A program made the position numbers and the translations under genes. From positions 1 through 34,600 of the forward strand of contig JAGPEO010000002.1 in assembly GCA_018056925.1 (NCBI GenBank): 34,600 nt of DNA, written 5' to 3'. Origin of the DNA: Phycisphaerae bacterium (lineage in GTDB: Bacteria; Planctomycetota; Phycisphaerae; UBA1845; Fen-1342). Positions within the stretch are counted from its first letter, which is position 1; the number at the start of each line of letters is the position of its first letter. Positions 31,819-34,600 of the stretch are shown piece by piece. The notes under the pieces were generated by a model. It made no database searches. It was not told where the DNA came from and saw only the letters and a list, made by a program, of their open reading frames with translations.

Positions 31819-33007
31819 CGTGTAGGGTGATAGCGACGGATCCAGGGATCTAAGGATCGAGGGATCAAGAATGCAGGGCCGGGGCGTGGCGGCCCGGAAT
31901 GCCGCCAGCGCCCTACCACCCGCGTAGTCGTCCAGCGAAACCTTGAGGGATCGAGGGATCGAGGGTGCAAGGGGGCAAGAGGGCAAAGAATCCGAGGCCG
32001 AAGTGCCAGCGCGGGCAACCCGATCCCCCGCACCAAGCCCCCTGCGCAATCCGAGGCCGCAGCGCCAGGGTCCAAGGTAGCTACGCGAACTGCGCGAGGC
32101 GGGCATAGCCGAAACGCGGACGCGCTTAAAAACGCGGCTTTTGTTCGCGGCGGGGGAGGCGGTCTCATAATAGGCCTCGTATTTGAGTTGGATTGGCAGT
32201 TTGCCAGTTTGCCCAGTCTGGTCGGCCATGGGCGAAAAAATCGTTGGTGGCTTTGCGCCATGGGCAGGTTGCCAGATTGCCAAGGTTTGCGCGCTCGAAT
32301 TTGGCAAAGTGCCGCGCTGCGCGAGAGCAGGAGTGAGGTGAAAGGTGAACAGGAGAGGGGGAGAGAGGCGGCGCGAGATAGCAGGAAAAAGGTGACGCCG
32401 CTGCGCGAGAGCAGGAGTGAGGTGAGAGGCGAACAGGTGACAAGGGCGGCTGCGCGCGGTGCTGGCCCAGGTGATCAAGCGGTCTGATAAAAAGGCCGCT
32501 AGGATGGCGTACTGGGGGCAGGTGATCAGATACCCATGCTTTTTGTGCACTCGATTTTGATAACCTGAGGCGCCGCTGCGCGGAGAGAGTTGATAGGAGA
32601 GAGGTGAACAGGCGAGAAAGCGCGGAGACGGATGATAGTTGACAGGTGAGCAGGAAGGACGTTTCGAATGCCGCATATTGGTCGCCTTTCTGCGCGGGGG
32701 CGCGCCGGTTCTACTAGAGATTCTATAAAGCCGTCAGCTTCCAGCTATCAGCTATGAGCCGGATGGCGCGGATTGTTGGCATTTGCTGGCCAATGGCGGG
32801 GAGACGCTGCTTGAGTGATAAAGTGATAAGGTGATAGCGTGATAAGGGCGCGAGTCAAGGCAATCGCTGAGACGCCGAGAGCGCCAGGGCCGCCAAACGT
32901 CGCGAGGGATCGAGGGATCATGAGATTGAGGGATCAAGGAGCGGAGCCGGGGCGTGCCGCCCCGGATTGCCGCCGACAATCTTGCACTCGCGCAGTACCT
33001 GCTCCGA
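31819..33007. repeat. Repeat island without genes
   Basis: About 1.2 kb of purine-rich short repeats. A 39-bp direct repeat beginning CGCTGCGCGAGAGCAGGAG lies at 32315-32353 and 32399-32437, with a weaker third copy near 32572. Runs of GAGGGATCGAGGGATC occur at 31855-31870, 31944-31965 and 32902-32938. A block with GCCGGGGCGTG...CCCGGA..GCCGCC follows such runs at about 31878 and 32945. AGTGATAA units lie at 32814-32846. Long reverse frames here are shadows or repeat translations. No RNA gene is recognised. Confidence 0.7.
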
Positions 33008-33574
33008 CTATGCCGTGTCAGCAGCCGACGCACTCACCCGGCGCCGCCGCCACCGCCGCGTTAACAATCGCACCGCCGAAAACGTCAGGACCGCAACGAT
33101 CGCCACGCCCGCCACGAGCTTCTGGGCCTGCCAATAATTTGGGTCCATTTGCCTTCGCGGCTGCACCCAATTAATCCCGGCCTCCAGAGGCAGTGTGGGC
33201 AACGCCGCAATCAGCTCCTTTTCCGTCGCGAAGCGCTTGACCTCTGCGGGCGTTATCGACCGCGCCTCCGCGAGCGTCAGGCCGGACTCGCGCGCTACGC
33301 ATTCCGCGTCCCCGGGCATCACCAAAAGGTACCCCGTAGAGTCGTTTAGTGCGAGTGCGTCAGCTCTCACCAGCGCGAAGGCGTGAACATGCTCGGCAAT
33401 TCGCAACCTTTTGTACGTGGCTACGAACTCGTCCAGCCCCGACACGCTGCTCATGACGGCGTAGTCATCCGTCACCGGGATCCAGTAGTCGTTAGTATGC
33501 AGAAACAGTTCTGCGGCCGCGGCAAATAGGACCGCCATGGTAAGCCACAAAGGCCACGACATCAGACGACGCAA
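33008..33574 (-). CDS. Two-segment membrane protein of unknown function
   Basis: A 188-aa protein. A hydrophobic N-terminal segment (WPLWLTMAVLFAAAAELFL) and a C-terminal one (LVAGVAIVAVLTFSAVRLL) followed by RRWRRRR suggest two membrane spans with a domain of about 120 residues between them, probably outside the cytoplasm. That domain has no motif I know. The start is TTG 33574, because AAAGGAGG (33582-33589) is 7 nt upstream; the ATG at 33562 is too far. It starts 19 nt after the Rhs stop and is probably translated from the same mRNA. An immunity role for the Rhs tip is possible but unproven. Confidence 0.7.
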   Translation of the reverse strand: MRRLMSWPLWLTMAVLFAAAAELFLHTNDYWIPVTDDYAVMSSVSGLDEFVATYKRLRIAEHVHAFALVRADALALNDSTGYLLVMPGDAECVARESGLTLAEARSITPAEVKRFATEKELIAALPTLPLEAGINWVQPRRQMDPNYWQAQKLVAGVAIVAVLTFSAVRLLTRRWRRRRVSASAADTA

Positions 33575-33593
33575 GACGGAGCCTCCTTTCCAG

Positions 33594-34600
33594 CTAGTCG
33601 AAGCACGAGCGTTTGTGCGTGAGCGTGTCCTGCTCAACAATCGACCACCAAAACTCCCTTAAGAGCCTACGGGGCCCGCGCTGCATTACCGACCAATGAA
33701 AATGGTCATAAAAGTGGTACAGGATCCTACAGGAGTAGAAACACGCGGTGCAGCAATGGGTGCGACGACACTCAGCGTAATACGTGAGATGAAGATTGCC
33801 GATGTTGCCAAACGCCCATATCTTCCAGGGGTCGCGCCCGGGTAATTGGAAATCGGCAGGTATATCAAAGGGCCCGCCGGACTCGCTGAATTCCGTGGAC
33901 GTGAACGAATCCGGTCCACAGCACTTGCATGCGCGACCGTCCAGTTTGCGTTTGAGGTTGCCGTTGGCGTCGCTCCTCAAAATCTGCGCCGCCGGCAACG
34001 CTCGGACGAAAGCACCGAAGTTCGAGTTCGGGTCTATGACCACCGACCTGCCCCCGGAGTACAGCCACAAAACCCACGGTGTGTCGACTGACTTCCCCTG
34101 CGGCTCGGAGAATGGCTCCGGTGGATCCGGATACGTGCATGTTGGCGATTCCCCCAATGGGTCTACTGCACTCACGGGTCTATTCAATGCATAAGCGTAC
34201 AGGTGTAAACCGCCCTCCTCCCCAATCAAATCCCGACCAATCCATCGCCCCAGCCGCGAACTGTAGTACCGATAGCCCCAGTAGCCCAGCCCGGTCTCGT
34301 CATCCCAGTACTTCGTACTGAACCGGAAGGGGTTGCGCTCGGCGTAGGCGCCGGCCTGGGCGACCACGTTGCCGTACGGGTCGTACTCGTACTTCGCGAC
34401 GATGGCCGCCGTCGCGGACGAAGCGCTCCAATCGAGCACCTGCACCACGTTGCCGTTGCCATCATACGCGTAGACGTACTGCAGATCGTCGCCGGTCTGT
34501 TCGGCGCCCGGCGTGTCGTTCAGATCGTACACCGCCAGCAAGCCGCCGATGCCGCCCGCGCCTTCGAGGCTGTTCACCTGGCCGTTCTGCCCGGCCAGAT
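33594..34600 (-). CDS. Rhs-repeat protein, C-terminal part with variable tip
   Basis: A partial gene, cut by the window edge; the frame is open to the last base. Residues upstream of about 34190 are YD/Rhs repeats (YAYDGNGNVVQVLDW, YEYDPYGNVVAQAG) followed by the core hallmark FRFSTKYWDDETGLGYWGYRYYSSRLGRWIGRD...LYAYALNRPVSAVDPLGE. After the DPLG motif comes a tip of about 195 residues, with several cysteines (CKCCG, CRRTHCCTACFYSC) and a His/Phe/Tyr-rich stretch (ILYHFYDHFHW). In polymorphic toxins this region is the toxin. I do not recognise the tip. It could also be a surface protein without toxin activity. A membrane protein gene follows at 19 nt. Confidence 0.85.
   Translation of the reverse strand, partial: LAGQNGQVNSLEGAGGIGGLLAVYDLNDTPGAEQTGDDLQYVYAYDGNGNVVQVLDWSASSATAAIVAKYEYDPYGNVVAQAGAYAERNPFRFSTKYWDDETGLGYWGYRYYSSRLGRWIGRDLIGEEGGLHLYAYALNRPVSAVDPLGESPTCTYPDPPEPFSEPQGKSVDTPWVLWLYSGGRSVVIDPNSNFGAFVRALPAAQILRSDANGNLKRKLDGRACKCCGPDSFTSTEFSESGGPFDIPADFQLPGRDPWKIWAFGNIGNLHLTYYAECRRTHCCTACFYSCRILYHFYDHFHWSVMQRGPRRLLREFWWSIVEQDTLTHKRSCFD

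Follow-up and report, generated by a model that had tools for sequence, protein, structure and literature searches.

Rhs polymorphic toxins pair a replaceable C-terminal tip with an immunity protein, RhsI (PMC3150448, PMC3482391). Like the locus analyzed here, they have a core that ends in DPxG, a tip that can be exchanged on that core, and a small downstream gene. Extra C-terminal modules within one genome are a further feature that they share with the genome from which this locus comes. The RHS toxins described in PMC3482391 include Sec-route proteins, planctomycete members, and PLA2 tips, and their immunity proteins include two-helix and lipobox types. Immunity genes also lie directly downstream of YD-shell toxins, and a disulfide is reported to involve the C-terminal domain of bacterial teneurin-like proteins (PMC13018210).

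The end of the Rhs gene and its downstream neighbor

The stretch of DNA analyzed (the window) is the whole of contig C99, 34600 bp long, from a Phycisphaerae genome assembly of 429 contigs that is 84% complete. Its right end holds, on the minus strand, an Rhs (YD-repeat) gene of which the 3' part is present (33594..34600; TIGR03696 and, at E 2e-05, RHS_repeat). The contig end cuts this gene, leaving the reading frame open and the last 334 residues present, and the stop codon is at 33594-33596 on the minus strand. A profile search placed the Rhs-associated core (TIGR03696, E 3.7e-23) at ORF residues 72-149 (34152..34385, minus strand). The first motif of the core is RDLIG and the second, at its end, is VDPLG, which is followed by E rather than L. 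Release of the tip by the usual Rhs self-cleavage appears doubtful because DLIG stands in place of the first DPxG motif and DPLG lacks a following L.

The variable tip, a candidate toxin domain, follows DPLG (33597..34151, minus strand). A first-pass annotation of this DNA had reported an unrecognized tip of about 195 aa after DPLG; the position holds, and the length is 185 aa. Both Cys clusters that it named, CKCCG (33915..33929, minus strand) and CRRTHCCTACFYSC (33729..33770, minus strand), are present. The tip has 10 Cys, or 5.4% of its residues, a level found in 1/205 control genes of the class. No catalytic motif or known fold was recognized in the tip, and its AF2 model (pLDDT 35.8) was useless. 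The tip frame is the best of six and free of stops, and its coding score is near zero. The GC content is 57% in the tip versus 63.5% in the core. A near-zero codon score and a lower GC content are expected for a foreign or fast-changing module.

The neighbor gene (33008..33574, minus strand) encodes a 188-aa membrane protein that is the candidate immunity protein. A gap of 19 nt (33575..33593, minus strand) separates the Rhs stop from the TTG start at 33574, and the ribosome-binding site AAAGGAGG (33582..33589, minus strand) is 7 nt upstream of the TTG. These coordinates bear out the earlier description of a membrane-protein gene with a TTG start and a strong AAAGGAGG site beginning 19 nt past the stop. 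AAAGGAGG occurs once in the window, against ∼0.7 copies expected by chance, and the weight of the site therefore comes from its position and not from its mere occurrence. The neighbor's own frame is the best of six (0.12 per codon) and has no stop, whereas the other frames score negative. An early codon model, built from Rhs repeats, gave wrong scores for small membrane genes and later served only as a minor term. Promoter-like or terminator-like sites were not found in 32700-34600, which fits, without proving, a single message for the Rhs gene and its neighbor.

The neighbor had been described as a two-span protein. The second membrane span (TM2, residues 153-171; 33062..33118, minus strand) is clear with a KD of 2.33. 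The first hydrophobic segment (residues 7-25; 33500..33556, minus strand) is borderline at 1.69 and could be either a signal anchor or a signal peptide. AF2 run without an alignment gave helices at residues 7-30 and 145-187, with a pLDDT of about 74-86 in the helices and about 30 in the loop. Both termini are basic, with MRR at the amino terminus and RRWRRRR after TM2. The middle domain (residues 26-152; 33119..33499, minus strand) is the candidate toxin-binding part, and its ∼125 aa should face the periplasm because of the basic ends (positive-inside rule), the two predicted spans, and the modeled helices.

A non-coding gap (31819-33007) lies between the neighbor gene and an rpoD-like gene, and it contains 8-nt phased words. 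Runs of GAGGGATC are found at 31825-31987 and 32894-32946 (6 copies versus 1.1 expected), GTGATAAG is at 32815-32846, and the gap also holds two copies of a 56-nt repeat that lie 1068 nt from each other.

Profiles from Pfam, NCBIfam, and PHROGs gave no family for the tip or the neighbor, and the PADLOC profiles gave none for the tip. The neighbor matched no known immunity family in Pfam or NCBIfam, and its only hit there was DUF3394 (E 0.035), which is below the cut-off. Searches of 200 close genomes and of 347 from across the class turned up no credible relative of either protein, and the neighbor was not found in plasmid records. Peptides from the core and tip were searched against 84,980 species genomes, and the matches were to the core only. 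The match of one locus (L012) extends into the tip region, and its tip differs. Four sets of weak matches were rejected. The tip match at G083:C301 (E 0.001) is a chance match that crosses stops in a non-coding frame. A neighbor match in G204 (E 5e-4) has one internal stop and was taken as chance, the match to the neighbor on contig C373 of the source genome (E 0.0016) was ascribed to hydrophobic composition, and PDB sequence matches to the neighbor are at chance level (best E 0.018). The first-pass view that neither domain is familiar and that the pair could be undescribed agrees with these searches, which returned no family or relative of either protein.

Variation of tips and neighbors among Phycisphaerae Rhs loci

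A search for alternative tips on related Rhs cores had been suggested, and such tips are present in the same genome with different neighbors on contigs C357 and C373. The C357 core is 77% identical to the window core in protein and 84% in DNA, and it bears an unrelated tip of 222 aa with 15 Cys. Twenty nt after this tip gene comes the gene for a single-span protein of 166 aa, different from the window neighbor, and then a second copy of the Rhs core that is cut by the contig end. The core ends of the three copies (window, C357 upstream, and C357 downstream) are clearly different. A 30-nt indel sets the window copy apart from those on C357, and identity between the window and C357 cores drops ∼25 codons before DPLG. 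Two further Rhs genes lie on contig C373. The gene between them encodes a multi-span protein, and its start and the stop of the first Rhs gene overlap by 4 nt. The neighbors differ between the window, C357, and C373. These data show that tip and neighbor change together on a shared core.

TIGR03696 matches were found in 104/120 related genomes, and 121 unique tips of at least 60 aa were collected from loci of related Phycisphaerae for comparison. Pfam identifies toxin domains in a minority of these tips, and most are without a recognized toxin domain. The assigned tips include PLA2G12 (L049:5579-6199, E 5e-12), Tlde1 (L104:4854-5474, 6.6e-07), M91 (L058, 2.4e-10), two Ntox24 (one at L125), three DUF6973 (L053, L057, and L101), one GIY-YIG (L104:3039-3713), one PT-HINT (L127), one GH-E, and, with weak matches, two PPPDE. 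A PLA2-looking motif at L064 has no Pfam support and was discarded. The many sibling tips without a recognized toxin domain, together with a window tip that lacks a catalytic motif, could mean that the tip is no toxin and instead forms a Cys-rich end of the Rhs shell with a surface or adhesion role, with the neighbor as its partner or anchor. YD-shell proteins can indeed act in adhesion, as teneurins do (PMC13018210). We consider this explanation improbable given that toxin domains are recognized at the same position in sibling proteins and that the tip varies together with the neighbor.

The genes behind Rhs tips were selected by one fixed rule and compared with neighbors of ordinary genes from the same genome group. 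By a crude hydropathy rule for export, used equally on both sets, 77/113 (68%) of the Rhs neighbors are exported-like compared to 29/117 (25%) of the controls (Fisher P 4e-11). None of the 117 controls is predicted to have exactly two spans, compared with 13/113 Rhs neighbors. In 6/9 pairs of homologous tips (E<1e-15) the neighbors are homologous as well, and the other 3/9 pairs have no adjacent neighbor in common. Similar neighbors accompany non-homologous tips in 81/6762 pairs, all of which share a zinc-ribbon motif. This ribbon, CxxCGYxLxG...CPEC, is present in 17/113 neighbors and occurs 18 times in 398 kb of Rhs loci versus 4 times in 400 kb of control DNA. Membrane neighbors with the ribbon stand beside unrelated tips at L052, L061, L064, L070, L073, L086, L093, L102, L108, and L121, and the zinc-ribbon membrane protein may be a reusable immunity chassis. 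The motif is absent from the window neighbor, which has one Cys.

Two other features of the class Rhs genes were recorded. In 15/49 class Rhs ORFs (loci L017, L018, L029, L035, L049, L050, L051, and L065), a dockerin-like EF-hand motif (D.N.DG.V...D) lies within the Rhs region, ahead of the tip. At L049, L050, and L161 (G016:C1:2089000-2121500), about nine C-terminal-only Rhs modules come after a long Rhs gene with a Sec-type signal, and every module has its own neighbor and a different, mostly Cys-rich tip. Such arrays are probably silent cassettes.

These arrays bear on the idea that the window pair is itself a dead or silent cassette, or that the neighbor is an unrelated membrane gene there by chance. 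The near-zero codon signal of the tip and the altered first cleavage motif are in line with this idea, as is the presence of an exported neighbor beside a quarter of the control genes. Against it, the tip and neighbor frames are both intact, the neighbor has a strong ribosome site after a short gap, and exported neighbors are far more frequent behind Rhs tips than behind controls. We judge it very unlikely.

The window tip and its neighbor are instead probably an Rhs toxin-immunity cassette, as the first-pass annotation proposed. The comparative data rather than the window pair itself support this reading: the tip and neighbor variants within one genome, the toxin domains of sibling tips, the excess of exported neighbors, and the linkage of homologous tips to homologous neighbors.

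Cysteine content, export, and proposed site of action

Cys makes up 4.2% of the tips, 0.4% of the cores, and 1.4% of the control genes in the class survey. Between homologous tips, Cys is also conserved more than any other residue, being identical in 81% of occurrences, and G is next at 59%. A Sec-type signal, read by eye, is found at the start of at least 10/12 full-length Rhs proteins of relatives. Four open frames in the source genome have both VKOR and thioredoxin-like (DsbA-type) domains. The VKOR-DsbA fusions are cataloged as L151-L156, with G000 contigs C421, C93, C68, and C74. The Sec signals in relatives, the VKOR-DsbA fusions, and the Cys conservation together suggest that Rhs tips undergo oxidative folding once exported. 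Neither "cysteine-rich" nor "disulfide" appears in the text of PMC3482391, and judged from that paper alone, the Cys pattern of Rhs tips may be unreported so far.

The next gene after the Tlde1-type (cell wall) sibling tip is lipoprotein-like, and the one after the PLA2-type sibling tip has a hydrophobic amino terminus. Both cassettes fit the logic of a toxin that acts in the envelope. Exported neighbors are found beside 44/57 Cys-rich and 21/35 Cys-poor tips, which is not a significant difference (P 0.10), and a specific pairing of exported neighbors with Cys-rich tips was dropped. This loose tie between neighbor export and Cys content would suit a toxin-immunity pair whose tip is active in the target cytoplasm and whose membrane neighbor prevents entry or acts by binding at the membrane. 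The cytoplasm-acting nuclease types GH-E and GIY-YIG among the sibling tips and the two-membrane-helix proteins Imm-CdiI and Imm17 listed in PMC3482391 are also in its favor. However, ten clustered Cys suit an oxidizing compartment, and the sole large soluble part of the neighbor is predicted to be periplasmic. We regard cytoplasmic action as unlikely.

The predicted oxidative folding of the tip after export and the periplasmic domain predicted for the neighbor favor an Rhs toxin that acts in the envelope and is countered by an immunity protein of the inner membrane. The earlier suggestion that the pair perhaps acts at the membrane is better cast as action outside the cytoplasm, and we hold the full envelope-acting version to be evenly balanced between right and wrong. 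The export, disulfides, topology, binding, toxicity, and target that we infer for the window pair would be connected as follows. The Rhs shell, bearing its replaceable C-terminal tip, would cross the inner membrane together with that tip via Sec, and VKOR-DsbA would make the disulfides that stabilize the tip. The tip would then be delivered to neighboring cells, where damage to the envelope, whether to the membrane, the wall, or periplasmic proteins, is its most likely effect. The immunity protein encoded 19 nt downstream would be held in the inner membrane, and its ∼125-aa periplasmic domain would bind the cognate tip and protect the producer and its kin.

For the class, we tentatively propose, with confidence a little short of even, that Phycisphaerae maintain a large venom-like arsenal of disulfide-rich extracytoplasmic Rhs tips. 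Among the tips would be PLA2, cell-wall, and metallopeptidase types along with many folds not known so far, and each tip would be paired with an immunity protein that is exported or anchored in the inner membrane. Part of the immunity set would reuse a single membrane zinc-ribbon chassis next to tips that are unrelated to one another. In this arsenal the window pair would be an orphan whose fold and target are both new. For a group that has hardly been cultured, and whose Rhs tips are mostly unknown domains, it provides a concrete example of an orphan pair. The pattern seen across the class is of greater interest than the window pair: Cys-rich tips, exported neighbors, Sec signals, and VKOR-DsbA fusions make envelope action a testable claim, and the class offers new domains, both toxin and immunity, that could be screened.

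Comparison with described Rhs systems

Unlike the described Rhs systems, the window tip and neighbor are outside all described toxin and immunity families, and the tips of Phycisphaerae are unusually Cys-rich. Tox-PLA2 and Tlde1 effectors are both sibling Rhs tips in the class, but the window tip has neither domain. The Sec-route RHS toxins (PMC3482391 Table 1; lipobox or membrane immunity proteins Imm65, Imm17, and Imm-CdiI) have in common with the relatives of the window a signal peptide and exported or membrane neighbors, and their Imm proteins are a precedent for two-span immunity of the kind predicted for the window neighbor. The window differs from these Sec-route systems in that its neighbor matches no Pfam family above the cut-off and the amino terminus of its Rhs protein is beyond the contig. 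The bacterial teneurin-like proteins (PMC13018210) resemble the window in their YD shell, variable C-terminal toxin (a candidate here), and gene immediately downstream, a comparison drawn from the last 334 residues of the window Rhs protein. The locus is most likely a new pair in a known weapon system: neither window protein has a known relative, and the sibling genes share the same plan.
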